DNA from: Xenophilus sp. Marseille-Q4582
Lineage (GTDB): Bacteria > Pseudomonadota > Gammaproteobacteria > Burkholderiales > Burkholderiaceae_C
Direction: 5' to 3'
DNA length: 64,000 nucleotides
NCBI RefSeq assembly: GCF_916700565.1
Contig: NZ_CAKAKO010000006.1
Span: 124,001 to 188,000, forward strand
Made by a program: the position numbers and the translations under genes. The notes below the pieces were generated by a model. It saw only the letters and a list, made by a program, of their open reading frames with translations, was not told the origin of the DNA and did not search any database. This document shows, one piece after another, positions 8,785 to 38,900 of this stretch. Position 1 is the first letter of the stretch. Each line of letters starts with the position of its first letter.

Positions 8785-8840
8785 CATTGCCGATGGTTCG
8801 GCAACAGCCCGTAGCCAGGGTGTCAAGGCTGCCGCGGGTT
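8785..8840 (+). promoter_or_regulatory. Three-hairpin leader element, copy 1
   Basis: Hairpin 1 pairs TTGCCGA (8787-8793) with TCGGCAA (8798-8804). Hairpin 2 pairs GTAGCC (8811-8816) with GGCTGC (8827-8832), with one G-U. A third weaker stem starts at GCGGG. The element ends about 150 bp before the start codon of the next gene. It is the most divergent of five copies. Confidence 0.55.
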
Positions 8841-8987
8841 TCACCCACGCCACCCGCCAGTTCGCCTCGGCATCTCACCGGCGAACGCTGCCCACTGGGC
8901 ATCGATGCCTCATTTCTCCAACCCACGGGATGGCCGCCACGTCCCGTCAGGAGCATGTCGCCACCCGGTCGATCTCAGGACTTCCCC

Positions 8988-9545
8988 ATGGACAACATCA
9001 CCAAGCAAGACCGCATTACGCTGAAGAACCTCAAGGTGGCCGACTTCGCCAGCGAGGAAACACTGTGCTTCAACGCAACCGTCGTGTTCGACGGTACTCC
9101 CATCGCCGAGGCCCGCAACGACGGCCACGGCGGCTCGACGTTCCTGCGCGCGCTCAATGGCAAGGCGGCGCTGCTGGCTCAGGCCGAAACCTTCGCCAAG
9201 GGACTGCCGCCTGCGCCGCTCGACCTCGGCCAGGAGGGTGAAGACCCTCACTACATCGACATGACGCTCGACTTCCTGGTCGATGAACTGGCCGATGCCA
9301 TGCACGCAGAACGCAAGGTGCGAGCCGCGTTCAACCGCGACATCGGCAACAAGGTGCTGTTCATCAAGGACGGCAAACTGCTGTTCATCAAAGGCATCAA
9401 GCTCAAGGCCATCGCCGACCGCAAGGCGTACTTCGCTTCGCTGCGCGCCAGGCAGGCCCAGCCCATCGTCATCCTCGCCGAGCTTTCGCCCGAGCAGGCA
9501 TTTGACCTGTGGAAGCAGCATGTCCTGGGCGACAAGCCCGACTGA
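8988..9545 (+). CDS. Conserved ICE protein of unknown function
   Basis: I do not recognise this 185-residue family. The N-terminal half looks beta-rich (ITLKNLKVADFASEETLCFNATVVFDG) and contains ARNDGHGG, a polar glycine motif also seen in phage and plasmid orphan proteins. The C-terminal half is helical and charged, with no signal peptide or membrane segment. The frame is open further upstream, but the AGGA site (8977-8980) and composition favour the ATG at 8988. It stands alone: a three-hairpin leader precedes it and an intrinsic terminator follows 25 bp after the stop. Confidence 0.75.
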   Translation: MDNITKQDRITLKNLKVADFASEETLCFNATVVFDGTPIAEARNDGHGGSTFLRALNGKAALLAQAETFAKGLPPAPLDLGQEGEDPHYIDMTLDFLVDELADAMHAERKVRAAFNRDIGNKVLFIKDGKLLFIKGIKLKAIADRKAYFASLRARQAQPIVILAELSPEQAFDLWKQHVLGDKPD

Positions 9546-9570
9546 CCCAGCGCCACCGCACCCTCCTGAC

Positions 9571-9598: not shown

Positions 9599-9683
9599 TT
9601 CTCCGAGCCCAGCAATCGGGGCTGGACCGGATGCCGTTTTCCAACTGACGCGGCACGGCCCGCGCACGAAGCTGCCCGCATGT

Positions 9684-9740
9684 TCGCTGATTCCGGTCAG
9701 CACATGCCAGCAGCCAGGGTTCCAGGCTGCCGCGGGTCTC
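9684..9740 (+). promoter_or_regulatory. Three-hairpin leader element, copy 2
   Basis: Hairpin 1 pairs GCTGA (9686-9690) with TCAGC (9697-9701). The linker CACATGCCA follows. Hairpin 2 pairs GCAGCC (9710-9715) with GGCTGC (9725-9730). Hairpin 3 pairs GCGGG with CCCGC around TCTCT. The downstream gene starts about 140 bp later. Confidence 0.65.
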
Positions 9741-9877
9741 TCCCGCGTTGCCCACCAGTCCGCATCGCATCAGGTCTGCGGACGCGCGTCCCCGTGACGT
9801 CGATGCTTTTTATCCACCGCGTGCGGGAGCTGCCATCCCGTGAGGGACAAGGCCCCGCTTTTCCAAGGAGCCCGTCC

Positions 9878-10090
9878 ATGTCCCAGCAAGCCTCTTTTGG
9901 CGAATTAGCCTCGACCTACTGCGGCAAGTTCCTGCCGCTCGAAGTCCTGCAAAGCGCCGCCGGTCACTACATCGGCACGCGCGATACCGAAGGCCCTGTT
10001 TCGCGGGAATCCCGCGAGTACTTCCGCAGCTATGCCGCGGCTCAACGTGCCCTCGAAAGAGGCGGCTGGTCCCAGCTCGCCATTCCCTGA
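9878..10090 (+). CDS. Small ICE protein of unknown function
   Basis: This 70-residue soluble protein is not recognised. It starts at an ATG 8 bp after a good AAGGAG site; the same frame is open upstream but has no second plausible start. The sequence is mixed helix with many Ser/Arg/Glu (SRESREYFRSYAAAQRALERGG) and no cysteine pairs or signal peptide. It is the first gene of a likely pair with the 130-residue gene 21 bp downstream. A three-hairpin leader precedes it. Confidence 0.7.
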   Translation: MSQQASFGELASTYCGKFLPLEVLQSAAGHYIGTRDTEGPVSRESREYFRSYAAAQRALERGGWSQLAIP

Positions 10091-10644: not shown

Positions 10645-10647
10645 ACC

Positions 10648-12556: not shown

Positions 12557-12644
12557 TTGTCCCCAGCGCGGGAAACCGGGTGCGGCGCAGTGCCGTTTCA
12601 TGCGGGCGGGTAGCCCGGCCCAGGGCCATCCTTGCCCCCATGTT

Positions 12645-12710
12645 CGTCGGCGTTGCCGACACATGCCCAGGCAGCCGAGACCTTCGAGGCTGCAAGCACG
12701 GGAAACCGCG
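12645..12710 (+). promoter_or_regulatory. Three-hairpin leader element, copy 3
   Basis: Hairpin 1 pairs GTCGGC (12646-12651) with GCCGAC (12655-12660) around a GTT loop. The linker ACATGCCC follows. Hairpin 2 pairs GCAGCC (12671-12676) with GGCTGC (12688-12693). A short third stem CGG/CCG closes a GAAA loop. The next start codon is about 100 bp downstream. Confidence 0.7.
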
Positions 12711-12752
12711 CTGGTTGTTTCTTCCTACGGACGCACCGCGTCCATCCACCCA

Positions 12753-12809
12753 CAAGGGACCTCTCCCTTGCGGGCGGGGAATCCCTTGTTCTTCCTCAAG
12801 GAGATTCCC
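12753..12809 (+). promoter_or_regulatory. Two-state leader switch over the ribosome binding site
   Basis: CAAGGGA (12753-12759) can pair with either of two identical TCCCTTG copies, at 12764-12770 or 12782-12788. The second copy is also the anti-Shine-Dalgarno strand: GGGAAT plus CCTTG (12777-12788) pair with CAAGG plus ATTCCC (12797-12809). That stem buries the AAGGAG site up to the start codon at 12810. The two states exclude each other, as in expression-platform switches. Confidence 0.6.
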
Positions 12810-13613
12810 ATGGACCGTTCCCTCATCAAATCCATGATGCCTTCGCTTGTCGCAGGCCATGTGCCCCGCAACGTGCGGTCGTTCAAGTATCGCGTGTTCG
12901 ATGATCAGCCGCAGTCCTCGACGCTGGGCTTCGCCATCGACCCCCAGCCCTTCGACGGCAAGGTGGTCGCGGCCAGCGACGACGCCATCGTCGTCAAGCT
13001 CAAGCCCAGCGAGTTCGCGGTGCTCGACCCCCACCTGGTGACCACCCTTCCCAGCGAAGGCGCCAAGGTGCATGTCCAACCGTATGCCCGCCGCCGCTTC
13101 GACGGCCTGCGCGCGGACACCCCGGAAGTAATCACCGAGAAGACCGCGGACGGTGTTCCCTACACCATCACCAGGCACATCCTCGGCTCCGCGCCTGCCA
13201 AGCTGCCCATCCCCGAGCCGCAGTGCATGGAACTGGGACAGCTCATCCAGCAGTTGGAGGAAATGCCGGCTCCCGATGGGTTCCGGCGCATCACCCACAT
13301 GCTGGTCGATGCGGGTGCCCGCGACTTCACCTGGGTCGATCCGAAGCCGTCCAAGATCATCGAGACACCCCCGGCGATCAGCTTCTCGGTTTCGACCTCG
13401 AAGTTCGAGGGCCAGGTGACGATCCTCTACGACCGCGGCGGCGACACCTACGCGGTGGAACTGAGCCGCGACGGCGAACTGGTCGATCGGCACGACGAGG
13501 TGTATTTCGACATGCTCGGTGAAGTGCTGGAGCGGCTTATCGACGACGGGCACTGGCGTCTGATCGACGTGAGCGTCATCGACGCCAAGGCAACCAAGCG
13601 GCGCTACGGCTGA
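12810..13613 (+). CDS. Conserved ICE protein of unknown function
   Basis: This 267-residue soluble protein is not recognised. Residues 10-120 look beta-rich (FKYRVFDDQPQSSTLGFAID ... AKVHVQPYARRRFDGLR) and may form an OB- or SH3-like barrel. A second domain (about 130-265) has alternating strands and helices ending in a basic AKATKRRYG tail. No signal peptide or membrane segment is present. The ATG at 12810 directly follows a stem that contains its AAGGAG site. The gene is between a three-hairpin leader and an intrinsic terminator, so it is monocistronic or starts a short transcript. Confidence 0.7.
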   Translation: MDRSLIKSMMPSLVAGHVPRNVRSFKYRVFDDQPQSSTLGFAIDPQPFDGKVVAASDDAIVVKLKPSEFAVLDPHLVTTLPSEGAKVHVQPYARRRFDGLRADTPEVITEKTADGVPYTITRHILGSAPAKLPIPEPQCMELGQLIQQLEEMPAPDGFRRITHMLVDAGARDFTWVDPKPSKIIETPPAISFSVSTSKFEGQVTILYDRGGDTYAVELSRDGELVDRHDEVYFDMLGEVLERLIDDGHWRLIDVSVIDAKATKRRYG

Positions 13614-14096: not shown

Positions 14097-14185
14097 GCGG
14101 CGCTGGCGGCATGGACAAAGGGAAGCGTCCGGATGCCGATTGATTACTGCCGCGCGCGCGAAGCCCGTCCATGCTGCCCCCATGC

Positions 14186-14260
14186 CTGCTGACGTTGTCA
14201 GCGACATGCCAGGCAACCATCGGTCTTCGAGGTTGCCGCGCAGTTTCCACTGCGTGACCG
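14186..14260 (+). promoter_or_regulatory. Three-hairpin leader element, copy 4, upstream of the DUF3577 gene
   Basis: Hairpin 1 pairs GCTGAC (14188-14193) with GTCAGC (14197-14202) around GTT. The linker GACATGCCA follows. Hairpin 2 pairs GGCAACC (14212-14218) with GGTTGCC (14231-14237). Hairpin 3 pairs CGCAG with CTGCG. I recall a candidate structured RNA called the DUF3577 motif reported upstream of this gene family; this copy may belong to it. Confidence 0.7.
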
Positions 14261-14377
14261 AGCCAGCTCGCACCGCATCCATCCGCGAGCGGCCACCAGT
14301 CCTGGTGGCGGATGCTTTCGCCTTATCAACCCACCGCGGGGTTACGCACCTTTCCCCGCATGCGTGGGGCCGGTGTG

Positions 14378-14400
14378 TCTCCGCTTCATCCCAATGGAGA
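14378..14400 (+). promoter_or_regulatory. Hairpin over the ribosome binding site of the DUF3577 gene
   Basis: TCTCC (14378-14382) pairs with GGAGA (14396-14400), which is the Shine-Dalgarno of the gene at 14407. Confidence 0.5.
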
Positions 14401-14406
14401 TTCACC

Positions 14407-15324
14407 ATGAGCACCACGTCCAACGAGAAATCGTATTTCGACCTCCACACCTCGGGCATCGGCTACATCCAGCGTGTCCGCGAGGTTCCCGTCCGGGGCG
14501 GCCGCCGTGCGCAGCCCTTCCTGGCATGCACCATCGCCGCGCTGGTCGGCTCCGCCAAGGACCCCAGCTACCGCTACTTCGACGTCAAGGTCTCGGGTGC
14601 CGAGGCCAAGAAACTGGTCGAGCGCTACATCGGCGTTGACGATCCCAAGCAGCGGCCGCTGGTGCGCTTCCGCCTCGGCGACCTCTGGGGCGATGCGTAC
14701 ATCCGCGACAAGGGTGAGCACAAGGGCCAGGCCGCCGCGTCTCTGAAGGCGCGACTGCTGAAGGCCGAGCCGCTTGACCGGGCCGAACTGGCTTCGATCA
14801 AGCTGCACGAGCTGATCACCCGCGGCATCGGCTACCTCAGCCGCCCGAAGGACGTCTCCCCCAAGGATGGCGATCCGTTCCTGTCGTGCTGCGTCGCGGC
14901 GCTGGCCGGACCTGTCGGTGAACCGGAATATCGGTACTTCGACACCATCGTCGCCACCCCTGAAGCCGAGCACCTGGTTCGCCGGTGCGTGCAGGCCATC
15001 GAAGGGGACCGCAAGGTGCTGATCGCCTTCCGTCTGAACGACATGAAGATCGATCCGTACATCCGCACCAAGGGCGAGCGCGCCGGGGAACCGGGAGCGA
15101 GCCTGGAATCGACGCTGGTCCACATCGGTCTCATCAAGATCGACGGCACCCAGGTCTATCCGACGAGCCAGGCGCAAGCCGAGGCGCCGCAAGCCGAGGA
15201 CGCACCCGCGCCCGAAGCCGAGGTTGCCGCCGACACCGCTGCCGACCAGCCTGTCGAGCCCGCCGTGCGCGAGCCCGCAGGTGAAGTCGAGGAGCAGGAG
15301 CCGGCATTGGCTGCTTCGTTCTGA
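14407..15324 (+). CDS. STY4534 family ICE replication protein (DUF3577), internally duplicated
   Basis: This 305-residue protein matches the DUF3577/STY4534 family. It contains two homologous halves. Residues 8-115 hold SGIGYIQRVREV, PFLACTIAAL, YRYFDVKVS and PYIRDKGE-like blocks. Residues 137-250 hold RGIGYLSRPKDV, PFLSCCVAAL, YRYFDTIVA and PYIRTKGERAG. The last 55 residues are an Ala/Glu/Pro low-complexity tail. The order of motifs suggests two copies of one fold that may bind nucleic acid; the family is annotated as ICE replication protein without biochemical proof here. The leader carries element copy 4. Confidence 0.85.
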   Translation: MSTTSNEKSYFDLHTSGIGYIQRVREVPVRGGRRAQPFLACTIAALVGSAKDPSYRYFDVKVSGAEAKKLVERYIGVDDPKQRPLVRFRLGDLWGDAYIRDKGEHKGQAAASLKARLLKAEPLDRAELASIKLHELITRGIGYLSRPKDVSPKDGDPFLSCCVAALAGPVGEPEYRYFDTIVATPEAEHLVRRCVQAIEGDRKVLIAFRLNDMKIDPYIRTKGERAGEPGASLESTLVHIGLIKIDGTQVYPTSQAQAEAPQAEDAPAPEAEVAADTAADQPVEPAVREPAGEVEEQEPALAASF

Positions 15325-15332
15325 TCCGGCAT

Positions 15333-15372
15333 GGCCCCTCACGGGGCCTTGCCTTTTTCCTATTCCCCAAGG
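15333..15372 (+). promoter_or_regulatory. Terminator-like hairpin overlapping an anti-Shine-Dalgarno pairing
   Basis: GGCCCC (15333-15338) pairs with GGGGCC (15343-15348), followed by TTGCCTTTTT. Alternatively CCTTG (15347-15351) can pair with CAAGG (15368-15372), covering the AAGGAG of the DUF3275 gene. The two pairings share bases 15347-15348. Confidence 0.55.
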
Positions 15373-15381
15373 AGAACCATC

Positions 15382-16071
15382 ATGGCAGTCACATCGGCGC
15401 CCGACCAATCGGGTTCGCCCATCACCGTCCCAGGCCAACTCACGCTGCGCACGATCCGCGGAAGAAACGGCCCTTTCAACGTCGGCCGACTTGTCACCCC
15501 CATCGGCAAGTTCGCGGTGAAGGATGCGGAGCTGGAGCAGTACCCCGAAGGCAAGTACGACGGGGAGTTCGTCATCCGCTACATCTTCCCGAAGTCCTAT
15601 CCCGTCGGCGACGGCATGCGGTTCGAGATCCGTGCCAACCTGGACGGGATGACGCTCAACGGCATCGACAAACTGAGCCGTGACGAGGCACGCAGCTTCA
15701 CCACCCAGGAAGTCGATCCGCTCGATGAAGAACTGGGCGCGCAGCCTGCGTCAACGCCGGCCAAGCCCGCCAAGGCATCCAGACCCGCCAAGCCCGCATC
15801 CGTGCAGGCGTCCGCGGACCCGCTGATCGATACCACGCCTTTTGGTGTGGATGCCCCGCCGCCCGCTGCGGCTGCTGCCCCCGGCAGCACCGAAGATGGC
15901 GACGCCGCGCTGTTCGGGCTGCTCTGGCCGCTGGGAGAGTCCGTGAAACTGGATTCGACCATCGACCGCCGCACCCTGCGCGCGCAGATCGCCCGCCTGG
16001 GTGAACTGGGCTACGCGCTGGACTTCAAGACGCAGGAGTGGAGCCGCCAGGCCGAACTGCAACCTGCGTGA
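15382..16071 (+). CDS. DUF3275 family protein
   Basis: This 229-residue protein has the DUF3275 signature in its first 120 residues: ITVPGQLTLRTIRGRNGPFNVG, IGKFAVKDAELEQYPEGKY and a GEFVIRYIFP strand. A proline/alanine-rich linker (about 130-180) leads to a C-terminal helical domain (LFGLLWPLGESVKLDSTIDR ... RAQIARLGELGYALD). It is soluble, with no signal peptide. An AAGGAG site precedes the ATG. DUF3275 proteins are typical of this ICE class, and their function is unknown. It lies 57 bp after the DUF3577 gene and may be read from the same transcript if the hairpin between them is passed. Confidence 0.85.
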   Translation: MAVTSAPDQSGSPITVPGQLTLRTIRGRNGPFNVGRLVTPIGKFAVKDAELEQYPEGKYDGEFVIRYIFPKSYPVGDGMRFEIRANLDGMTLNGIDKLSRDEARSFTTQEVDPLDEELGAQPASTPAKPAKASRPAKPASVQASADPLIDTTPFGVDAPPPAAAAAPGSTEDGDAALFGLLWPLGESVKLDSTIDRRTLRAQIARLGELGYALDFKTQEWSRQAELQPA

Positions 16072-16117
16072 TCGCAGACGCCGCATCCGCGGTGTTCTTG
16101 ATCCATCCGCCGGGGTT

Positions 16118-16157
16118 CCTTCCCCATGCGGGGGAGGCTCCGACTTTCTTCTGGAGG
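16118..16157 (+). promoter_or_regulatory. Hairpin leader with masked ribosome binding site
   Basis: CCTTCCCC (16118-16125) pairs with GGGGGAGG (16130-16137). Immediately after, CTCC (16138-16141) can pair with GGAG (16153-16156), the Shine-Dalgarno of the gene at 16166. Confidence 0.5.
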
Positions 16158-16165
16158 TCTCCATC

Positions 16166-16489
16166 ATGTCCACCATCGCTTGCGATGCACCTCATTGCAC
16201 GCTGGACGAACCCGCGTGGCGCGCTGTCTGCAAGACGGCCGCCGAGCACGCCCAGCGTGGTTGCGGCCTGTCCTGGGATCACTGGGTCACGCTTTTCAGT
16301 TCGGAGATCGACGCGCAAGCCAGTCGGTTGCCGGAAACCCAGCGGGCTCAGGCCCTGGAAATCGCGACCCAGGAATGGGACTACGCAACCCCTGCCGAAC
16401 GGCAGGAAACGCAGGAGTGGAACGCTGCGAACGGCTACTGCTCCCATGGCATCGAACTGGGCTACTGCCCAGCCGGTTGCGGCTCCTAG
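16166..16489 (+). CDS. Small cysteine-containing ICE protein of unknown function
   Basis: This 107-residue protein carries seven cysteines: C-X4-C near the start (IACDAPHCTLDE), two in the middle helix region and C-X7-C-X3-C at the end (YCSHGIELGYCPAGCGS). The end also has a histidine, so a metal-binding knuckle is possible. The rest is helical with many Glu/Gln/Trp. It is soluble and not recognised. The ATG follows CTGGAGG, which is part of a hairpin. Confidence 0.65.
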   Translation: MSTIACDAPHCTLDEPAWRAVCKTAAEHAQRGCGLSWDHWVTLFSSEIDAQASRLPETQRAQALEIATQEWDYATPAERQETQEWNAANGYCSHGIELGYCPAGCGS

Positions 16490-16536
16490 TCCGCACCGGA
16501 CTCCATCGCCGCACGCGCGGCATTCCATCACCCGCT

Positions 16537-16586
16537 GGGGGCTCTCCCCCACGGGGAGGCCTCCGGCTCGATTCTTCAGGAGGCCT
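16537..16586 (+). promoter_or_regulatory. Mutually exclusive hairpins and perfect anti-Shine-Dalgarno stem
   Basis: AGGCCTCC (16557-16564) pairs perfectly with GGAGGCCT (16579-16586), locking the AGGAGG site of the gene at 16590. Upstream, CTCCCC pairs with GGGGAG (ending 16558), and that pairing uses bases of the first arm. A further GGGGG/CCCCC stem (16537-16550) competes with it. Confidence 0.6.
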
Positions 16587-16589
16587 TTC

Positions 16590-16997
16590 ATGGGCTGGTA
16601 TTTCTCCCCCCAATCGCGGTCTGAACTGATCGCGGAACTGATCGCACCGCAAGAGACCGAGCGCGCCAGCGTCAAGGTCATCGCCCACGCGCTGCGCGGC
16701 AACGTCCTGTGGTCCGTCACGGAAGTGACGGCCAAGGTCGAAGGCGTGCATCGTCATCTGGCGCCAGGCCAATCCCTGCGCTACATCCGCTGCGATCTTC
16801 TCGAACGCAGCGGCGACCAGTGGGGCTACAAGCCACTGGACGAGTCCATGCACCCGTACTACTACACGTGCCCGCTGTCCTATCTGGACCTCGCACCAGA
16901 GCAGTCCGCCGACTGGCGTGCAGGCGTTCGCGCCTACCACGCGCGGCGGCGCACACCCACGGCACCTGCGGCACCCACCGCAGCGCTGATGGCCTGA
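16590..16997 (+). CDS. Conserved ICE protein beginning MGWYF (DUF6927-like)
   Basis: This 135-residue protein opens with MGWYFSPQSRSELIAELIAP and has a central alpha/beta part with YIRCDLLERSGDQWGYKPLDESMHPYYYTCPLSYLDL. I recall the MGWYF opening and the GYKPMDES-P-YY-CPLSYLD pattern from proteins labelled DUF6927 in conjugative elements, with limited certainty. It is soluble, with an alanine/proline-rich tail. The Shine-Dalgarno AGGAGG is masked by a perfect 8-bp stem. Function unknown. Confidence 0.7.
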   Translation: MGWYFSPQSRSELIAELIAPQETERASVKVIAHALRGNVLWSVTEVTAKVEGVHRHLAPGQSLRYIRCDLLERSGDQWGYKPLDESMHPYYYTCPLSYLDLAPEQSADWRAGVRAYHARRRTPTAPAAPTAALMA

Positions 16998-17013
16998 GCC
17001 AGGAGGAACCGAC

Positions 17014-17274
17014 ATGGACCCGATCCTGGCTGCGCTTCCGCCCTCGCTGTTGAAGCTCGTTGAAGGGAGTTTGTCCAACGACGAAGTTTCTTCCGACGAG
17101 GAAATGCTGGAGTACTTCATCAGCAACGGCCTCACCGAGGCACAGGCACGGCAGGCACTGACCCACCGCGACCAGTACCTCAACAACATCTACCTGGAGG
17201 GCTTCACGCCAATCACTTCGGTAGATGAGGCGCTTCACTTCAACCCGCACACCCGGCAGTTCGAGCCGGACTGA
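17014..17274 (+). CDS. Small acidic ICE protein of unknown function
   Basis: This 86-residue acidic protein has a GGAGGA site in a 16-bp gap after the previous gene, so the two are probably co-transcribed. It is helical with two blocks (LLKLVEGSLSNDEVSSDEEM and LTEAQARQALTHRDQYLNNIYLEG) and no cysteine, signal peptide or membrane segment. I do not recognise the family. A hairpin follows the stop codon. Confidence 0.65.
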   Translation: MDPILAALPPSLLKLVEGSLSNDEVSSDEEMLEYFISNGLTEAQARQALTHRDQYLNNIYLEGFTPITSVDEALHFNPHTRQFEPD

Positions 17275-17292
17275 GCGGCTTTCTTCCACCCC

Positions 17293-17313
17293 CTGGGGCA
17301 GTACTTGCCCCAG
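17293..17313 (+). promoter_or_regulatory. Intergenic hairpin
   Basis: CTGGGGCA (17293-17300) pairs perfectly with TGCCCCAG (17306-17313), loop GTACT. No T-run follows. It sits between two co-directional genes, like the other hairpins of this block. Confidence 0.55.
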
Positions 17314-17350
17314 CGGGCGGTGCTGTTCCCGTTCATCCGAGGACACCACC

Positions 17351-18001
17351 ATGCCCGAAAACACTTCTTCCACCACGCTGTATCGCATCGACGAATGCTC
17401 CGACGTGATGGCCGATGCTTGCGTCGGCGATGACCAGGGCAATCTGATCTTCCTGTCGATCTGGGCGCGCGACACCGCCGTCCAGCAGTTCCTCGCTCGT
17501 CTGACCCTCGGGCGCGACGAACAGGGCCTGGACCAGTTCCACGTCATCACCGACCAGGGCGGCAGCGTCCCGGTGTTCGTCAGCAACGTCGATCGTCTGG
17601 AAAAGCGCATGACCCGCGCCTACCGGCGAACGCTGTTCGGTTCGCTGTCCAACGTGTGGCTGTTCGACCGCCGCTGCGTCAAGCCCGACAAGGCCAACGC
17701 CAGCGCACTGGCATTGCTGCCCAAGGGCAGCGCCCACCGGCTTGACCGCCTGTGGATGCTGGTGCGGGACACCTGCCCACTGCCGCTGCTCGACCACTGG
17801 CGCGAAACCGTGCTGGAGCTGCTACAGACCCGCGAGATGCTGGCCCGTCTTCCGTTCGCCCTCGGGTCGCTGGAAGGCCATCGGCTCGCCATCGACGTGC
17901 CGGCGCTGACCCTGGCGCTGGGCTCCCTGATCCGCAGTGACGTGCTCACCGCCTATCCGTATCCGGCCAAGATTTGGACGCCGGAAGCGGTAGCGGCTTG
18001 A
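17351..18001 (+). CDS. Conserved ICE protein of unknown function
   Basis: This 216-residue protein is not recognised. The N-terminal 90 residues look like an alpha/beta sandwich (LIFLSIWARDTAVQQFLARLTLG, FHVITDQGGSVPVFV). The middle has a basic RMTRAYRRTLFG helix, and the C-terminal half contains HRLDRLWMLVRDTCPLPLLDHW and a final acidic-to-hydrophobic helix. No signal peptide is present. Its ATG follows CGAGGAC. It lies between two hairpin-bearing spacers and just upstream of a DNA methyltransferase-like gene. Confidence 0.7.
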   Translation: MPENTSSTTLYRIDECSDVMADACVGDDQGNLIFLSIWARDTAVQQFLARLTLGRDEQGLDQFHVITDQGGSVPVFVSNVDRLEKRMTRAYRRTLFGSLSNVWLFDRRCVKPDKANASALALLPKGSAHRLDRLWMLVRDTCPLPLLDHWRETVLELLQTREMLARLPFALGSLEGHRLAIDVPALTLALGSLIRSDVLTAYPYPAKIWTPEAVAA

Positions 18002-18011
18002 CCCGCCCGCG

Positions 18012-18033
18012 AGAGCACGCCAAGGCGTGCTTT
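18012..18033 (+). promoter_or_regulatory. Intergenic hairpin followed by short T-run
   Basis: AGCACGC pairs with GCGTGCT around CAAG (18014-18031), with TT following. It lies 30 bp before the AGGAG site of the next gene. Confidence 0.45.
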
Positions 18034-18065
18034 CGCACTTCATCCCCGCCAACCAGGAGACTTCC

Positions 18066-19175
18066 ATGGCCCTCATGTTCCCGCGGCTCGCCCGCAATTT
18101 CTCCAAGAACGGGTACTACCCGACCGACGAACCCACGCTCGAAAGAGCCCTCAACGCACTGATGCCCAGCGATGGCCCGATGTGCATCCTCGATCCCTGC
18201 GCCGGCGAAGGCGTGGCGATCGCCGAAGCCGCTCATGCTCTCGGGCGCGAGCAAGCCAAGGCGTTCGCCGTCGAGTTCGACGCGGAGCGGGCACGCCATG
18301 CCCGCGGCCTGGTCGATCATTGCCTGCACGCGGACCTGATGGACACGATGATCTCAAAGCAGTCGTTCGGGCTGCTCTGGCTCAACCCACCGTATGGCGA
18401 TCTGTCCAAGGACGTCAACGGCAACATCGGCTATCAGGGCCAGGGCCGTGCCCGCTTCGAGAAGCTCTTCTATCAGCGCAGCCTCTCGCTATTGCAGTAT
18501 GGCGGCGTGCTGGTCTTCATCGTCCCTGGCTACGTGCTCGACGCCGAGCTGGTCGGCTGGCTGACACGCCACTACACGGACCTACGCATCTACCGAGCGG
18601 TGGAAACGCAGTTCAAGCAGGTGGTGATCTTCGGCCGCAGGGTGCGCCAGCGCGAGCTGGCACCCGATGGTCTCAAGGCCGTGCGCAATCTGCTGCTGCA
18701 GATCGGGCTTGGTGAAGTCGAAGCCGAGGAACTGCCGAGCGAATGGCCGTTCCTGCCGTACATCGTCCCCGCCAGTCCGGCCGAGCCGGAGCATTTCTTC
18801 CGCGTGACGATGGAGCCAGAGCAGTTCGCCGATGAAGTCGGCCGGCTGCAAGGCCTCTGGCCGTCGCAGGACACGCACCTGGGGGCCGCGCAGCAGTCGC
18901 TGCGTCCACCGGCGCGTGCCTTGTCCCACTGGCATCTCGCCCTGGCTCTGGCCGCGGGCGCGATCTCGGGGGTTGTGCGCTCCAAGACCGGGCGCGTGCT
19001 CGTCGTCAAAGGTGACACCCACAAGGACAAGACGCTCCAGCGGGAATTCACCGAACGCGAAGACGGCTCCATCGCCGAGACCCGCATCCTCACCGACAAG
19101 TTCGTGCCCGTCATCCGCGCGTGGGACATGACGCCCGGCTCCGCCACGCGGGGCGAGGTGTTGACCATCCGCTGA
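18066..19175 (+). CDS. DUF6094-type SAM-dependent methyltransferase
   Basis: This 369-residue protein has a Rossmann-type methyltransferase core. Motif I is ILDPCAGEGVAIAEAA (about residues 41-56) and the catalytic motif IV is NPPYGD (about 108-113), the pattern of N6-adenine-type DNA or RNA methyltransferases. The first residues (MFPRLARNFSKNGYYPTDE) match what I know of DUF6094 proteins of mobile elements. The C-terminal 130 residues lack recognised motifs. The AGGAGA site supports the internal ATG at 18066 over one 39 bp upstream. It is close to a helicase gene; the pair may act together on DNA, which is inference. Confidence 0.8.
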   Translation: MALMFPRLARNFSKNGYYPTDEPTLERALNALMPSDGPMCILDPCAGEGVAIAEAAHALGREQAKAFAVEFDAERARHARGLVDHCLHADLMDTMISKQSFGLLWLNPPYGDLSKDVNGNIGYQGQGRARFEKLFYQRSLSLLQYGGVLVFIVPGYVLDAELVGWLTRHYTDLRIYRAVETQFKQVVIFGRRVRQRELAPDGLKAVRNLLLQIGLGEVEAEELPSEWPFLPYIVPASPAEPEHFFRVTMEPEQFADEVGRLQGLWPSQDTHLGAAQQSLRPPARALSHWHLALALAAGAISGVVRSKTGRVLVVKGDTHKDKTLQREFTEREDGSIAETRILTDKFVPVIRAWDMTPGSATRGEVLTIR

Positions 19176-19250
19176 TCGCTTCTCTACCGCTGACGGTCAC
19201 CGTCGGCTTCCTCCACCCACCGGGGTCCAGTCGCCCCGAGGGGGCGCCGT

Positions 19251-19273
19251 GGCCCCTTCATCTTCAAGGAGCC
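19251..19273 (+). promoter_or_regulatory. Anti-Shine-Dalgarno hairpin
   Basis: GGC plus CCTT (19251-19258) pair with AAGG plus GCC (19266-19273), which covers the AAGGAG of the gene at 19279. The upstream CGCCCC/GGGGCG hairpin lies directly before it. Confidence 0.5.
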
Positions 19274-19278
19274 TTTCC

Positions 19279-19590
19279 ATGGCAGCCCAAGCACTTCCCA
19301 TCGGCCAAGCATCGAGCCGGCGCTTCTTCCCTGGCGAGACCGTCGTGACCTGTGGCGTTGACGCCCTGGTCCAGCAGGGCCGGCTCAACCCGGTGCCGTA
19401 TCTGCACCGCCACCTCAATGGCGACTGGGGCGACCTCGACGACTACGACAAGCGGCAGAACGATGCCGCGCTGGAGTCCGGCGAGGACCGCCTTTTCTCT
19501 TCCTACCAGGTCGCACCCGGCCTGCAGCTTTGGATTATCACCGAATGGGATCGCAGCGTGACCACGCTGCTACTGCCCAGCGAGTACTGA
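19279..19590 (+). CDS. Small ICE protein of unknown function
   Basis: This 103-residue protein begins with a short basic stretch (ASSRRFFPGETVVTCGVDALVQQG) and ends in a beta-rich segment (LQLWIITEWDRSVTTLLLPSEY). The middle is acidic (WGDLDDYDKRQNDAALESGEDR). It is soluble, contains one cysteine and has no recognised domain. The start is chosen at the ATG after AAGGAG. A related family seems to accompany the helicase gene in this ICE class, by position only. Confidence 0.65.
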   Translation: MAAQALPIGQASSRRFFPGETVVTCGVDALVQQGRLNPVPYLHRHLNGDWGDLDDYDKRQNDAALESGEDRLFSSYQVAPGLQLWIITEWDRSVTTLLLPSEY

Positions 19591-19634
19591 TCTCTCCCAG
19601 ACGACGGCCGCCTGCCGTCTCTTCATCCCACCAC

Positions 19635-19672
19635 GGGGCATGCCATCGCCCCGCGGGGGTGGTGCATGCCCC
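19635..19672 (+). promoter_or_regulatory. Long intergenic hairpin before the helicase gene
   Basis: GGGGCATGC (19635-19643) pairs perfectly with GCATGCCCC (19664-19672), and an inner CGCCCC/GGGGTG pairing extends it. ATTTTCTTT follows. The TTGGAG site and start codon come within 20 bp, so this resembles a terminator fused to a leader. Confidence 0.6.
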
Positions 19673-19692
19673 ATTTTCTTTGGAGCATCACC

Positions 19693-21972: not shown

Positions 21973-22024
21973 TCCCCACGCCAACGCCGGCCTCGCGCCG
22001 CCGGCTTTCCATTGTTCCCACCTT

Positions 22025-22068: not shown

Positions 22069-22085
22069 ATTCCAAGGAGATTTCC

Positions 22086-25663: not shown

Positions 25664-26199
25664 CGACATCCCATCTGGCCTTGCGTGGCCTGCTCGTACT
25701 GCTGGCGGGTCTGCCGCTGGCCTCGCTTGCCGGCGAGCCGCTGATCGTGGTCGAAGACCGCGGCGGCGCGTCGGCGCTGCCGTACTACGAAGCCCTGAAC
25801 CTCCAGCCGCGCACCAACGCACCGGCCCGGCCGCCGATCCCGACGCCCCAGGTTCCCGCCACGCCGGCGGACGAGGCCGCGATGCTGCCGGTGCGCAGCG
25901 CCAAGCTCACCCCCGGCACCGTCCCGCGGCGTGTCATCGAGGCTCCGGGTCTGCGGCCTTTCGTTGTCGTCGGCGACGACGAGGCATCTCGGGCCTGGCT
26001 GCGCAGCCAGGCAGCCGCGCTGCGCGAGCGCGGCGCGGTCGGTCTGGTGGTCAACGTCGAGACCGTGCAGGGCCTGGCGCGGCTGCGCACCCTGGTGCCC
26101 GGCGTACCCCTCGCGCCCATGTCCGGCGACGACCTGGCCGAGCGCCTGGGCCTGCGGCACTACCCGGTGCTGATCACAGCCACCGGCATCGAGCAATGA
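25660..26199 (+). CDS. PFL_4695 family integrating conjugative element protein
   Basis: This 179-residue exported protein (TIGR03765) has a signal peptide of about 24 residues (LLAGLPLASLAG). The mature part contains LIVVEDRGGASALPYYEALNL, a proline-rich linker and a C-terminal block ERGAVGLVVNVETVQGLARL ... LAERLGLRHYPVLIT. It lies between the transglycosylase and TraD genes, the standard location. Its exact role in the apparatus is unknown. Confidence 0.85.
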   Translation: MTTSHLALRGLLVLLAGLPLASLAGEPLIVVEDRGGASALPYYEALNLQPRTNAPARPPIPTPQVPATPADEAAMLPVRSAKLTPGTVPRRVIEAPGLRPFVVVGDDEASRAWLRSQAAALRERGAVGLVVNVETVQGLARLRTLVPGVPLAPMSGDDLAERLGLRHYPVLITATGIEQ

Positions 26200-26203
26200 A
26201 GCC

Positions 26204-28396
26204 ATGTCGGGGAAACAGCCGGTCGAGGTACTGCTTCGCCCAGCGGTGGAGCTATACACCGTTGCCGCATGCGCGGGCGCCGCGTTTCTGTCCCTGGTGG
26301 CCCCATGGTCGCTCGCGCTGAGCCCGTCCATGGGCGTCGGCAGCGCGCTGGCGTTCGGCGCCTACGGTGCCATCCGCTACCGCGATGCCCGCGTCATCCT
26401 GCGCTACCGGCGCAACATCCGCCGCCTGCCGCGCTACGTGATGACCAGCAAGGACGTGCCGGTCAGCCAGCAGCGGCTGTTCGTGGGGCGCGGGTTCCTG
26501 TGGGAGCAGAAGCACACCCATAGGCTCATGCAAACGTACCGGCCGGAGTTCCGCCGCTACGTCGAGCCCACACCAGCCTACCGGCTGGCGCGACGGCTGG
26601 AAGAACGGCTGGAGTACGCGCCGTTCCCGCTGTCCCGGCTGTCGAAACTCACCGGCTGGGACGTACCTTTCAACCCGGTGCGGCCGTTGCCGCCTGTGGG
26701 CGGCCTGCCGCGCCTGCACGGCATCGAACCCGAGGAGATGGACGTCAGCCTGCCGCTGGGCGAGCGCGTCGGCCACTCGCTGGTGCTGGGCACGACGCGC
26801 GTCGGCAAGACCCGGCTGGCCGAACTATTCGTGACCCAGGACATCCGGCGCGTGAACGCCGCGGGCGAGCACGAGGTGGTGATCGTCATTGACCCCAAGG
26901 GCGATGCCGATCTCCTGAAGCGGATGTACGTCGAGGCTAAGCGCGCCGGCCGCGAAGGCGAGTTCTACGTCTTCCACCTGGGATGGCCGGACATCTCCGC
27001 GCGCTACAACGCCGTGGGGCGATTCGGGCGTATATCGGAAGTCGCCACCCGCGTTGCGGGGCAGCTTTCCGGTGAAGGCAACTCGGCCGCCTTCCGAGAG
27101 TTTGCGTGGCGGTTCGTCAACATCATTGCCCGCGCCCTGGTGGAGCTGGGACAGCGGCCCGACTACATGCTGATCCAACGGCACGTCATCAACATCGACG
27201 CGCTGTTCATCGAGTACGCCCAGCATTACTTCGCCAAGACCGAGCCCAGGGCCTGGGAGGTGATCGTCCAGATCGAGGCCAAGCTCAACGAGAAGAACAT
27301 CCCGCGCAACATGATCGGGCGCGAGAAGCGCGTGGTGGCGCTGGAGCAGTACCTCTCGCAGGCGCGCAACTACGACCCGGTGCTGGATGGCCTGCGCTCG
27401 GCGGTTCGCTACGACAAGACGTACTTCGACAAGATCGTCGCATCGCTGCTGCCGCTGCTGGAGAAGCTCACTAGCGGCAAGATCGCGCAGCTCCTGGCCC
27501 CGAACTACTCCGACCTGGCCGACCCGCGCCCGATCTTCGACTGGATGCAGATCATCCGTAAGAGGGCCATCGTCTATGTGGGCCTGGATGCGCTCTCCGA
27601 CGCCGAGGTCGCCACCGCGGTCGGCAACTCGATGTTCAGCGATCTCGTGTCGGTCGCCGGGCATATCTACAAGCATGGGATCGACGATGGCCTGCCGGGC
27701 GCATCGGCCGGTGCGCGCGTGCCGATCAACGTCCATGCCGACGAGTTCAACGAATTGATGGGCGACGAGTTCATCCCGCTGATCAACAAGGGCGGCGGTG
27801 CCGGCCTGCAAGTCACTGCGTACACGCAGACCCTGTCGGACATCGAGGCCCGCATCGGCAACCGCGCGAAGGCAGGCCAGGTGATCGGGAATTTCAACAA
27901 CCTGTTCATGCTGCGCGTGCGCGAGACCGCGACCGCCGAACTGCTGACCCGGCAATTGCCGAAGGTCGAGGTCTATACGACCACCATCGTCAGCGGCGCG
28001 ACCGACAGCTCGGACATTCGCGGGGCGACGGATTTCACGTCGAACACTCAGGACCGCATCAGCATGTCCAGCGTGCCGATGATCGAGCCGTCGCACGTCG
28101 TCGGCCTGCCGAAAGGCCAGTGCTTCGCGTTGCTGCAGGGCGGCCAGCTTTGGAAAGTGCGCATGCCGCTGCCGGCGCCGGACCCGGACGAAGTGATGCC
28201 GGCAGACTTGCAGCAACTGGCCGGGTACATGCGCCAGAGCTACAGCGAAGCGACGCAGTGGTGGGAGTTCACCAGTTCCCCCGCCTTGCAGGACACGGGC
28301 CTGCCCGACGACCTGCTGGATGACGCCGCTGCGGCCGAACCTCCCGCGGTGGCCATTGCCACCGACGAGGACACCGGCAACAAGGCCTCGCCATGA
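26204..28396 (+). CDS. traD: Type IV coupling protein, SXT/TOL subfamily
   Basis: This 730-residue VirD4/TraD-type ATPase (TIGR03743) links the relaxosome to the secretion channel. Two membrane segments lie at residues 16-60. Walker A is GTTRVGKTR (196-204, Lys202) and Walker B is VVIVIDPKGD (225-234). The C-terminal lobe has NVHADEFNELMGDEF (about 509-523) and ATAELLTRQLPKVEVYT. The C-terminal tail is acidic, as needed for relaxase contact. It starts 4 bp after the previous stop and overlaps the next gene by 4 bp. Confidence 0.93.
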   Translation: MSGKQPVEVLLRPAVELYTVAACAGAAFLSLVAPWSLALSPSMGVGSALAFGAYGAIRYRDARVILRYRRNIRRLPRYVMTSKDVPVSQQRLFVGRGFLWEQKHTHRLMQTYRPEFRRYVEPTPAYRLARRLEERLEYAPFPLSRLSKLTGWDVPFNPVRPLPPVGGLPRLHGIEPEEMDVSLPLGERVGHSLVLGTTRVGKTRLAELFVTQDIRRVNAAGEHEVVIVIDPKGDADLLKRMYVEAKRAGREGEFYVFHLGWPDISARYNAVGRFGRISEVATRVAGQLSGEGNSAAFREFAWRFVNIIARALVELGQRPDYMLIQRHVINIDALFIEYAQHYFAKTEPRAWEVIVQIEAKLNEKNIPRNMIGREKRVVALEQYLSQARNYDPVLDGLRSAVRYDKTYFDKIVASLLPLLEKLTSGKIAQLLAPNYSDLADPRPIFDWMQIIRKRAIVYVGLDALSDAEVATAVGNSMFSDLVSVAGHIYKHGIDDGLPGASAGARVPINVHADEFNELMGDEFIPLINKGGGAGLQVTAYTQTLSDIEARIGNRAKAGQVIGNFNNLFMLRVRETATAELLTRQLPKVEVYTTTIVSGATDSSDIRGATDFTSNTQDRISMSSVPMIEPSHVVGLPKGQCFALLQGGQLWKVRMPLPAPDPDEVMPADLQQLAGYMRQSYSEATQWWEFTSSPALQDTGLPDDLLDDAAAAEPPAVAIATDEDTGNKASP

Positions 28397-29154
28397 AGGA
28401 CGCCGCCTCGACTGCACAACGGGAGCAGAACCAGCGCCAGGGCCTGATCGTCGGCACCATCACCTTGCCGTTCCGGCTGCTCGGGGTGCTGATCGGCTCG
28501 CTGCTGTTCTCGATCGTCGTGGAGTGCGTCGGCATGCACCTGTTCTGGAAGGACCAGGGCTGGCGGCACTCGCAGCAGATGTTGCAGTACGAACTGGGGC
28601 ACCTGTCCAGCCACTTCACGCGCAGCGTCGTCGTGCAGGAGCCGGGGCGCACCGCGCACGAACTGGTGGATACCGGCTACGAATGGGTATTCGTTCGCTC
28701 CGGGCTGCTGGAGCGCATGAGCCAGACCGCCGAGCGCGCCCGCGCGCCGAGCCACGGGAGGATCCAGGACGGGGGGCGCAACTTTCGCTACTACATCAGC
28801 CAGGTCTATGTCTGGACCGAGAACTACCTGATTGCCGCGGCCTTCACCACCCTCACGTTTCTGGTGCGCCTGCTGGTTCTGGTGCTCACGTTGCCGCTGA
28901 TCTGCACCGCGGCGTTCGTCGGCCTGATCGACGGTCTTGTGCGGCGGGACGTGCGCCGGTTCGGCGCAGGCCGGGAATCCGGCTTCATCTACCACCGCGC
29001 GAAGGCGAGCCTGATGCCGCTGGCCGTGCTGCCGTGGGTCACGTACCTGGCCTTGCCGATCTCTGTGCATCCACTGCTGATCCTGCTGCCCAGCGCAGCC
29101 TTGCTGGGACTGGCCGTGAGCCTGACTGCGGGCAGCTTCAAAAAATACTTGTGA
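28393..29154 (+). CDS. PFL_4697 family ICE membrane protein
   Basis: This 253-residue integral membrane protein (TIGR03747) is translationally coupled to traD by ATGA. It has two N-terminal segments (residues 20-45), a cytoplasmic or periplasmic middle part (ELVDTGYEWVFVRSGLLERM), then hydrophobic helices at about 145-175 and 205-245. The family always follows the TraD gene in these ICEs. Its stop codon marks the end of the operon; an AT-rich foreign insertion follows. Confidence 0.85.
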   Translation: MKDAASTAQREQNQRQGLIVGTITLPFRLLGVLIGSLLFSIVVECVGMHLFWKDQGWRHSQQMLQYELGHLSSHFTRSVVVQEPGRTAHELVDTGYEWVFVRSGLLERMSQTAERARAPSHGRIQDGGRNFRYYISQVYVWTENYLIAAAFTTLTFLVRLLVLVLTLPLICTAAFVGLIDGLVRRDVRRFGAGRESGFIYHRAKASLMPLAVLPWVTYLALPISVHPLLILLPSAALLGLAVSLTAGSFKKYL

Positions 29155-29200: not shown

Positions 29201-30130
29201 TTATTGAATTTGCTGACCAAGGATTTTCTCGCGATACATATTGGCCAAATGGCGCGCCCTCATGCTCCACTGCTCTGTAATCTTTGGGAAATCTGTTGCG
29301 CCGCGCCCATCCATTCCTTGCAATGTAACGTAGCCCTGCCCATCCTGTCCGCGTACAAAAGCTATGTAGTTATATATTGAATCTCGAAATTCAGTGAGAG
29401 CATAAAAGAAGGCATCGCCAGCCGGAAGCGCACGAGATAAGTCAATGCGACCTTGGGCATATAAAAAATCATTGACACCCTTCATTCCCCATCCTACCCG
29501 ATCCAACTCAATGTAAAGATTGTCCACGGCGTCATAATGCACAGATGGAATGTAACCACATGAAAAGTCCCATGTTTCGAGCCAGTCGAGAAAGTCAGAC
29601 CTGAAATATGAAGGAACAATATTTTGAAGTGTGGCTATGGAATCCGCCATCTGCTGAGGCGTTAATGCGCTCCTGGCAACTTGAAATGCTGATGGGAAAA
29701 TTCTCTTACAGACATCTTGTGGGATAAAACTAATATCAGAAATTTCACCCCAATAGACCACGTGAACCGGAAAAATCGATCCATCCAGCCTTTTGTGTTG
29801 AGTGCCATGGAACTGATGATGATTTATGCTGGTATGGCGATTTGCCGTTGTGAAAATCACATAACAACCAATCGGCTCAGGGAAGGAATCGGTCTTACTC
29901 AACTCAGCCGTAACGTCTGTAGAGTTTAGTTGATTAACAAATTTTGCCTGCCCAAACACTGAGTAGCCGCCAACGGCAGGAAAAATGTCAATGCCATGCT
30001 GCCTTTGCCCATTTCCGCCGTATCTTCTGAATTGCACGTCATACCTCATATTCCGCGCGACCCAGTCCCTCATGAGGTAGCAGCAAATTTCCTCAAAATC
30101 TTGATCAGTTCTAAAGGTCAGTCCTTGCAT
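29201..30130 (-). CDS. Putative PD-(D/E)xK (Mrr-like) nuclease protein, candidate defence gene
   Basis: This 309-residue protein is transcribed against the transfer genes and is clearly AT-richer than them. The start at 30130 follows AGGAT; upstream in-frame codons lack a site. Residues 1-110 resemble restriction-endonuclease-like folds: a helix DFEEICCYLM, then YGGNGQRQHGIDIF with a candidate catalytic Asp (about 53) and GQAKF, a Q-x-K variant of (D/E)xK (about 66-70). Similar GQxQxGID...QxK motifs occur in effector nucleases of antiphage systems. Residues 140-309 are helical with no recognised domain and no Walker motif. Host or phage defence is inference. Confidence 0.6.
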   Translation of the reverse strand: MQGLTFRTDQDFEEICCYLMRDWVARNMRYDVQFRRYGGNGQRQHGIDIFPAVGGYSVFGQAKFVNQLNSTDVTAELSKTDSFPEPIGCYVIFTTANRHTSINHHQFHGTQHKRLDGSIFPVHVVYWGEISDISFIPQDVCKRIFPSAFQVARSALTPQQMADSIATLQNIVPSYFRSDFLDWLETWDFSCGYIPSVHYDAVDNLYIELDRVGWGMKGVNDFLYAQGRIDLSRALPAGDAFFYALTEFRDSIYNYIAFVRGQDGQGYVTLQGMDGRGATDFPKITEQWSMRARHLANMYREKILGQQIQ

Positions 30131-30270
30131 TTTTATCCTGGATCTTTGTAAGAGCGTTGATATTTTGCCACGCGGCCGGTGGAAATTCCCTTCTTGAATT
30201 CTGGCCTGACGACCACTCCCTGAGCGAACTGGACGCACGCTGCCAATCAAACCGATCAGCGCAGTTTCCT

Positions 30271-38056: not shown

Positions 38057-38069
38057 ACCGGAGAACGCC

Positions 38070-38855
38070 ATGGAACAGAAACGTCCTTCCATTCCGATGC
38101 AGGTCCAGGCGTTCCGCCGTCGCCGCTGGCGGCCTCGCTGGCCCTGGGTATTGGCTGCTGCGCTGGTCGCGCTGCTGCTGATCTGGCTGGTGTCCCGGAC
38201 GCCCGGCGAATCCTCAGCGCCGTCGCGCGCGCCGGTCAGCACGGCGCAGGTCGCTGGGCCACCCTGGCAGATGGGCAACCCGGAAGGCCGTTTCACGCTG
38301 ACGCTCTATGCCGACCTGGAATGCCCGTTCTGCCGGGAGTATTTCCCGCAGCTCAAGCGCTGGGTCGGCAACAACACCGACGTGGCGCTGCAATGGCATC
38401 ACCAGCCGCTGGCCGCGCACGAGCCTGCCGCGTCGGCCGAGGCACGTCTGGCCGAGTGCGCCGCCGAAGCGGGCGGGCATGCGGCGTTCTGGCAGGCGGT
38501 CGAATGGGTCTATGCCCACACGCGCAGCGACGGCCAGGGCTTGCCCGATGGCTTGCGTTACCCCGAAACAACGTCAGCCATCGAACAGTGCATGGCTAGC
38601 GAGCGCCCCAACGTGGCCATCCGCGCGCAGGCCGCGGAAGCCACCAAGAGCGGCGTGACCGCCACGCCGTCGCTGCGACTGCTCGATCGCCAGACGGGCC
38701 AGGCCATCCTGTTGCAGGGGCCGATCGAGGGCGATGCCTTGCTCTCGGCCATGGACCTGCTGGCGGCCGGGGAAATGGCCAGCGACGCGCCGGGTTCGCC
38801 CGCCACCCCCACATCCGAAATGCCTGCCGACGTTGTCGGCGACATGCCCAGGTAG
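38070..38855 (+). CDS. Membrane-anchored DsbA/DsbG-like thiol oxidoreductase
   Basis: This 261-residue protein has one N-terminal membrane anchor (residues 25-43) after a basic cytoplasmic start, then a thioredoxin-fold domain with ECPFCREYFP (Cys85, Cys88) and a cis-proline motif VTATPSLRL (about 195). It should handle disulfide bonds of periplasmic transfer proteins such as the cysteine-rich TraU-like protein downstream. The last 35 coding bases overlap hairpin 1 of leader element copy 5, and the stop TAG lies in hairpin 2. Confidence 0.85.
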   Translation: MEQKRPSIPMQVQAFRRRRWRPRWPWVLAAALVALLLIWLVSRTPGESSAPSRAPVSTAQVAGPPWQMGNPEGRFTLTLYADLECPFCREYFPQLKRWVGNNTDVALQWHHQPLAAHEPAASAEARLAECAAEAGGHAAFWQAVEWVYAHTRSDGQGLPDGLRYPETTSAIEQCMASERPNVAIRAQAAEATKSGVTATPSLRLLDRQTGQAILLQGPIEGDALLSAMDLLAAGEMASDAPGSPATPTSEMPADVVGDMPR

Positions 38856-38900
38856 CCCTCGGTCTTGAAGGCTACGGCGCGGCTCGCCGCGCTGACCGCT
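38821..38900 (+). promoter_or_regulatory. Three-hairpin leader element, copy 5
   Basis: Hairpin 1 pairs GCCGAC (38826-38831) with GTCGGC (38835-38840) around GTT. The linker GACATGCCC follows. Hairpin 2 pairs GTAGCC (38852-38857) with GGCTAC (38870-38875). Hairpin 3 pairs GCGCGG with CCGCGC. The element starts inside the preceding coding sequence, and the next gene begins about 140 bp downstream. Confidence 0.7.

Follow-up and report, generated by a model that had tools for sequence, protein, structure and literature searches.

radC RNA of an ICEclc-like conjugative element: two pseudoknots, two architectural classes and a candidate hairpin at the Shine-Dalgarno sequence

We analysed a window of 64,000 nucleotides (nt) of Xenophilus sp. 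Marseille-Q4582 (contig NZ_CAKAKO010000006.1, positions 124,001 to 188,000 of the forward strand), in which a structured element, the radC RNA, stands before five different genes. The window is part of an integrative and conjugative element (ICE) with a MobH/TraI_2 relaxase (46446..48317, + strand) and TraC, TraU and TraG-like transfer genes, and this host element is ICEclc-like; genes for an SSB (at 3858), a topoisomerase (at 4584) and an AcaB-type regulator (at 2478) also lie in it. The five RNA copies and the genes behind them are all on the + strand, and the genes are referred to below by downstream family (0 to 7). Copy 1 (8772..8908) is the leader of a gene for 185 amino acids (aa) (8988..9545; family 5), and copy 2 (9669..9806) is that of a 70-aa gene (9878..10090; family 3) which is conserved among 16 aligned sequences. 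Copy 3 (12629..12775) leads a conserved 267-aa gene (12810..13613; family 2). None of these three genes had a Pfam match, and structure models of the 12810 protein (predicted local distance difference test score, pLDDT, 80.3) and the 8988 protein (78.2) had no PDB match at E<=0.001. Copy 4 (14171..14315) precedes the gene of a DUF3577/STY4534-family ICE replication protein (14407..15324; family 1; PF12101, 1.4e-90; NF040584, 1.7e-74), and copy 5 (38809..38957), within the transfer gene cluster, precedes the radC gene with its JAB domain (39038..39532; family 0; PF04002, 2.3e-40).

All five copies are members of the Rfam family RF01754, radC RNA: its covariance model gave 62.5, 81.1, 98.9, 122.8 and 133.7 bits for copies 1 to 5 (gathering cut-off 40) with E-values of 2.7e-9 to 1.8e-25, far above chance, and the consensus hairpins are present with compensatory changes. 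By the Rfam hits the full element is 137-149 nt long, and the hairpins 1-3 described in an earlier note on this DNA (the original prediction) make up its 5' part. That three-hairpin element is real but incomplete, as it left out two pseudoknots, a hairpin that pairs with the Shine-Dalgarno sequence (SD) and a promoter-like element. Its spacing of 100-170 nt to the start codon holds when counted from hairpin 3 but not for the whole element, the 3' end of which is 34-91 nt from the start codons. The note had also named a DUF3577 RNA motif; the sites are radC RNA instead, no Rfam 15 family other than radC matched at the five sites (E up to 5), and a literature search pairing DUF3577 with an RNA motif found no paper. 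Its claim that unrelated genes share one element agrees with the five copies before five different genes, and is reportedly already made in the report of the radC motif. That report dates from 2010 (PMC2864571). The radC RNA is a known family and a cis-regulatory candidate, and a search of the open literature on the radC motif and RF01754 found no study of what it does.

Relatives were collected by scanning a core pattern over species genomes, which gave at least 116 loci in a sample biased to copies that match the pattern. For the first alignment, 138 pattern hits were reduced to 46 at 90% identity, three more hits at locus ends being omitted, and these 46 together with nine copies of the window's own genome formed a 55-copy alignment. 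From it a covariance model restricted to hairpins P1-P3, with no pseudoknot included, was built. It located 95 copies in a set of 60 loci and a further 86 in a set made up of the window and the remaining 56 loci, hence 181 copies, of which 127 are distinct. In the window this model gave 92.0, 75.1, 74.2, 45.7 and 41.1 bits (the last for copy 1) and no sixth copy; as the 55 sequences that it was built from include these five, only the lack of a sixth carries information. Within 12 selected loci from relatives, 29 of the 30 copies that the P1-P3 model finds were also recovered by Rfam, and both of the classes described below were among them. The RNA had matches in 2 of 369 genomes drawn from the class and in 12 of 250 drawn from the family, the window's genome being one of them in each case. 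Pseudomonas, Achromobacter, Stenotrophomonas and Zoogloea species are among the matches listed for the pattern scan. The window's genome has nine copies on two contigs, each contig with a relaxase. In the genomes sampled the copies keep company with this kind of transfer system: in 15 of 18 radC-bearing contigs (13 genomes) the copies are followed, on their own contig and strand, by a TraI_2 relaxase that is 3' of them all, the exceptions being two contigs without a TraI_2 relaxase and one with a relaxase about 280 kb away on the other strand. All copies are on a single strand in each of the 41 multi-copy loci. A start codon follows 176 of the 181 copies at a median of 218 nt past the model start, although a few scripted starts in single-member families look wrong, and the other five copies lie within about 220 nt of a locus end. 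A Serratia locus (L117, 1190-7778) has four copies, one of them before a 521-aa protein with a HATPase domain.

The presence of several copies per element could mean that they are recent duplicates which have drifted at random, a possibility that the original prediction had itself raised. Copies before the same gene in different loci have mean identities of 77-85% (four families), compared to 64% for copies before different genes in one locus (90 pairs). Because same-gene copies across loci are more alike than different-gene copies within a locus, recent duplication with drift is excluded, and the compensatory changes argue in the same direction; we therefore regard this explanation as hardly credible. 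Judged by these identities, the radC RNA copies are old.

The hairpin arms that the original prediction had paired were borne out in the sequence, hairpin 1 as GCTGAC/GTCAGC (14188-14193/14197-14202), GCCGAC/GTCGGC (38826-38831/38835-38840) and GTCGGC/GCCGAC (12646-12651/12655-12660), and hairpin 2 as GCAACC/GGTTGC, GTAGCC/GGCTAC and GCAGCC/GGCTGC. In the linker, the copy at 8785 reads AACAGCCC instead of ACATGCC. In addition, the loop of hairpin 2 is complementary to a segment just 3' of hairpin 3, and the two form pseudoknot 1, with arm pairs such as GATC/GATC, GGTC/GACC, GACC/GGTC, GGGT/ACCC and GGGGC/GCCCC. On the + strand of the window these are GGGTG 8818-8822 with CACCC 8851-8855 in copy 1 (the 3' arm placed by hand, as another CACCC occurs earlier, inside hairpin 3), GGGT 9717-9720 with GCCC 9750-9753 in copy 2, GACC 12679-12682 with GGTT 12713-12716 in copy 3, CGGTC 14221-14225 with GACCG 14256-14260 in copy 4 and CGGTC 38860-38864 with GACCG 38894-38898 in copy 5. 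In the 55-copy alignment 88.6% of the cells of pseudoknot 1 pair, and double changes number 46; shuffles gave 16.6, and sliding the partner gave no more than 10. The pairing score is 12.65 with a copy's own partner, 9.88 with the partners of other copies and 9.21 with shuffled ones. For the 127 distinct copies we used a tree-aware null, in which the changes inferred for each column are replayed on the tree. Because the G-test with this null is too weak for single pairs, helix-level statistics were used, a choice made after the outcome of the G-test had been seen. By these statistics a two-pair stack of pseudoknot 1 (47-81) ranks first in the alignment, and none of the 200 nulls attained it. 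Of the 22 best stacks per length, none made purely of other pairs was significant, and one three-pair stack of one other pair and two nested pairs had E 0.025.

Covariation above the tree-aware null at the level of helices upholds the claim that structure is under selection, and the kind of mismatch tolerated indicates on which strand. Over the 22 nested pairs, read on the gene-sense strand, we counted 115 G-U and 20 A-C cells; changes away from Watson-Crick pairs, counted on the tree, came to 60.7 towards G-U vs 16.1 towards A-C, and in pseudoknot 1 to 7.0 vs 2.0. Rates in unpaired columns were 0.052 for C>T and 0.045 for G>A, and T>C (0.083) exceeded A>G (0.049); a bias in mutation therefore does not account for the G-U excess. 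This excess favours RNA over both a cruciform, which the original prediction had left as an alternative, and a single-stranded DNA promoter, and on this comparison the selected fold is most likely that of the transcript, the gene-sense RNA.

The single-stranded DNA promoter has a counterpart in Frpo, which acts as a fold of the template strand and is likewise a structured element that recurs ahead of establishment genes on conjugative DNA (PMC11541004). Here the fold would form in the incoming transferred strand, and RNA polymerase would start establishment genes from it in the recipient. Gene types near the copies include ssb, methylase and radC, and in the 15 of 18 contigs where the copies point to the relaxase they have the orientation needed if the transfer origin is located there, which made this reading attractive. 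However, a template-strand fold predicts the reverse of the counts given above, in cells as in events, and the pairing bias, RNA-like on the gene-sense strand, sets this element apart from Frpo (PMC11541004). Furthermore, TTGACA-type sequences stand just upstream of the RNA in families 6 and 7, and a conserved upstream element does so in families 1-5. We therefore rejected this candidate and consider it very improbable.

The part 3' of the core divides the radC RNA into two architectural classes by the presence of a second pseudoknot. In class I, helix P4 crosses helix P5, and a hairpin, P6, is enclosed. Arms of P4 include GTTCGC/GCGAAC, GTCCGC/GCGGAC, GCTCGC/GCGAGC and GATCGC/GCGATC, and those of P5 GCATCC/GGATGC, GGCATC/GATGCC, GCATCG/CGATGC, GCTTCCG/CGGAAGC and GGCACC/GGTGCC. 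P4 and P5 occur at fixed spacing in 81/81 unique copies of families 0, 1, 3, 5, 6 and 7 and in 0/33 of families 2 and 4 (class II), and both are found in 2.7% of shuffled sequences; these counts cover 114 of 123 unique 3' parts, the other nine, seven of which have both helices, belonging to small or unassigned families. P4 and P6 exceed the tree-aware null. In the window, copy 3, at 12629, is class II by its downstream family and the other four copies are class I. Their second pseudoknots, all on the + strand, lie at 8860..8909 in copy 1 (P4 8860-8866/8880-8886, P5 8869-8874/8904-8909), at 9758..9806 in copy 2 (P4 9758-9764/9777-9783, P5 9767-9771/9802-9806, its 5' arm being placed by hand at the second GCATC), at 14266..14315 in copy 4 (P4 14266-14271/14285-14290, P5 14275-14280/14310-14315) and at 38905..38957 in copy 5 (P4 38905-38910/38926-38931, P5 38915-38920/38952-38957), where P6 occupies 38934-38950.

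The RNA described here is like RF01754 in sequence, in hairpins P1-P3 and P6 and in its position before genes that include radC (PMC2864571). In the Rfam model, however, both arms of pseudoknot 1 are unpaired, P4 is absent and a three-pair helix stands where P5 lies here; that model also stops short of hairpin P7 and the SD hairpin, and draws no distinction between classes I and II. A CaCoFold revision lists radC among the RNAs with covarying pairs that are absent from the database structure (PMC7657543). Those additional pairs may or may not include one of the pseudoknots reported here, and we do not claim priority for them (PMC7657543). With this proviso the architecture and platform look new, in a family that is itself known.

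Downstream of the core, the SD can pair with an upstream segment in families 0 (radC), 1 (DUF3577), 2, 6 and 7. In the window such SD-pairing hairpins run up to the start codon on the + strand in copy 3 (GGGAATCCCTTG/CAAGGAGATTCCC, 12777..12809), copy 4 (GGTGTGTCTCC/GGAGATTCACC, 14372..14406) and copy 5 (GGCGCCCTCC/GGAGGTCCGCC, 39006..39037). The linker hairpin P7 precedes them in copy 3 (CAAGGGA/TCCCTTG, 12753..12770) and copy 5 (GGAGGG/CCCTCC, 38984..38999). The z values of the stretches that hold P7 and the SD hairpin were -4.93 for copy 3 (12745-12815), -2.30 for copy 4 (14316-14412) and -1.37 for copy 5, the last not significant alone. The SD duplex had a mean energy of -14.95 when the partner was its own, -11.35 when it came from another family and -9.80 when it was shuffled. 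In terms of pairing potential only, a start's own partner was better than the average over other families in 93 of the 105 unique starts (starts that were missing, had an SD score under 4, fell outside families 0-7 or were duplicates being omitted), including all starts of families 0, 1, 2, 6 and 7 and 8/9 in family 4. The median accessibility of the SD was 0.19, compared to 0.32 at 302 other starts of the same loci.

Several results weigh against a regulatory reading of this architecture. Against the tree-aware null single pairs have little strength: by the G-test one pair only, in hairpin 1, reached E<0.05, and the best pair of pseudoknot 1 had E 0.25 (0.05 with the covariation score). In the second pseudoknot P5 fails the null, an outcome that its near invariance and partial misalignment probably explain; when crossing helices were searched for more freely, only 21 of 142 cases exceeded the 95th percentile of shuffles, and the 3' part of class II gave no stack beyond the null. 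At the SD, a start's own partner was better in 10/19 family 3 starts and 2/4 of family 5, which is no gain over cross-family partners, and the family 4 outer helix scored 0.0 (two copies). Stems exceeded the 95th percentile of other starts in only 5 of 108 cases, a strict anti-SD 4-mer occurred in 53/105 starts vs 24.8% of shuffles, and with families 0-3 each tested alone the SD hairpin covaried in family 2 only (E 0.025-0.035). Window copies at 9669 and 8772 fold without a convincing SD hairpin, and an alternative pairing common to all families was not found.

Some further pairings were noted. A switch in which the 3' arm of P4 pairs instead with a GUUC segment lying downstream is seen in some leaders (in others by eye) but not in all families, and is therefore not claimed. 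By eye, competition between the P7 5' arm and the anti-SD segment looks possible in several families. In family 3 leaders the foot of P7 and a segment just before the start codon form a significant stack (0/200 nulls), which is possibly an alternative pairing or possibly an effect of the alignment.

SD pairing and a strongly structured 5' part in most families would also suit a passive leader, the folded 5' end of which protects the mRNA or offers the ribosome a standby site and senses nothing. Yet some letters outside the helices are conserved, namely CCCAG in the linker and UUCAA in the loop of hairpin 2, and these together with two pseudoknots would seem to exceed what protection needs, and we consider a purely passive leader unlikely.

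Families 1-5 share an upstream element of about 26-29 nt, which opens with AA, carries GG a few bases later and closes with TGCCGATT; before the window copies it ends 26-27 nt ahead of the Rfam start. On the + strand it precedes copy 2 (9614..9642, 29.1 bits), copy 3 (12573..12601, 27.2 bits), copy 4 (14116..14144, 27.8 bits) and, weakly, copy 1 (8717..8745, 12.1 bits), for which the score is within the range of five shuffles (maximum 14.8 bits). The profile was made from 69 sequences, including the sites of copies 1, 2 and 3 and a relative (L073) with the same letters as that of copy 4, so these scores are partly by construction. A C5-cytosine methylase gene (6822-8744) lies between the topoisomerase gene and copy 1, and its end overlaps the weak element. 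Outside the profile's building set, sites without an RNA were found on the + strand before the AcaB-type regulator region (2387-2415, 22.8 bits), before 23114 (23025-23053, 19.6 bits), after radC and before transfer genes (39604-39632, 19.5 bits) and, weaker, before topB (4480-4508, 14.9 bits), and an unexplained one on the - strand (24430-24458, 18.2 bits). Since the promoter-like element is also found ahead of genes that lack the RNA, the group defined by the promoter coincides only in part with the group defined by the RNA, and these sites, on their sequence, point to a wider promoter group.

The element is missing from copy 5, the copy of the radC gene. A thioredoxin/DsbA-like gene (38070-38855) runs into this copy, with its TAG stop (38853-38855) in hairpin 2, where the stop forms the U-A version of a covarying hairpin 2 pair. 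In families 6 and 7, from two Pseudomonas species, TTGACA-type sequences would start transcription near the 5' end of the RNA. Other small genes with TTGACA-type promoters follow the RNA at two loci of two Pseudomonas species (L086, 5553-6295; L142, 780-1501), which extends the range of its genes beyond the usual ones.

In ICEclc a 27-bp motif is common to eight of nine bimodal promoters (PMC9286271), and the window resembles these transfer competence promoters in that here, too, several operons are preceded by an element of about that length (PMC9286271). From this length and recurrence we infer that the window element may correspond to the ICEclc motif (PMC9286271). ICEclc also has a 14.5-kb transcript starting at ORF81655 (PMC2892462), which by gene order alone would correspond to 14407-29154 here (PMC2892462); a 349-aa reverse frame (29201-30250), passed over by a composition-based gene picker, follows this run. 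For the ORF81655 transcript a very weak primer-extension product ends about 250 bp before the start codon (PMC2892462). Copy 4 begins 236 nt upstream of the DUF3577 gene start, and by gene order only the ICEclc end would fall at the 5' end of the RNA (PMC2892462).

Overall, we favour, with a probability of about 0.6, the reading that the radC RNA is a translational leader which controls genes of the element and answers to a signal acting in trans. On this reading the five copies are structured 5' leaders, that before radC an intra-operon one. Their core consists of three hairpins locked by pseudoknot 1, and class I adds P4 with P5 around P6. The linker hairpin P7 follows and then, in most families, the SD-pairing hairpin, which is expected to form and to repress. 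The core would bind an element-wide or cellular signal, presumably a ligand, and its occupancy would decide whether the SD is exposed, such that several genes of the element might be translated together. The promoter-like element before three copies, and weakly before a fourth, would provide a first, transcriptional layer. A single trans-acting signal for the whole regulon, as the original prediction had suggested, is plausible as a hypothesis.

A rival reading replaces a small molecule by a protein. An RNA-binding protein of the element or the host could recognise the pseudoknotted core and switch the SD hairpin between open and closed, which would place the element's genes under feedback control. 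In the genomes sampled the RNA accompanies a single kind of mobile element, as the TraI_2 relaxase in 15 of 18 radC-bearing contigs illustrates, and several copies per element would suit one trans factor; Pfam scans, however, named no dedicated RNA-binding regulator, a weak point for the protein, with the window proteins partly scanned and many of them without a match. A protein-bound leader is thus a serious possibility, to which we give less than even odds.

Translational riboswitches such as SAM-II and preQ1 combine a pseudoknotted core with control of the SD. The radC RNA has a structured, conserved core with a pseudoknot and, as a candidate, control of the SD; it differs from them in standing before genes of mobile elements, in having an SD hairpin separate from the core and in having no known ligand. 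Tentatively, and with some doubt, it could be an orphan class of translational riboswitch of conjugative elements, the double-pseudoknot core of which senses one metabolite, or one marker of the state, of a cell competent for transfer and frees the SDs of several element genes at once, as a second layer over the shared promoter. If it is a riboswitch, classes I and II would be two couplings of one sensor to the same output.

With two pseudoknots, two classes and a candidate SD hairpin, the radC RNA becomes a testable model, and a better model of it could help to detect elements of this kind. If the translational reading is true, the bistable programme of transfer that ICEclc is known for would gain a further layer, at the level of translation.

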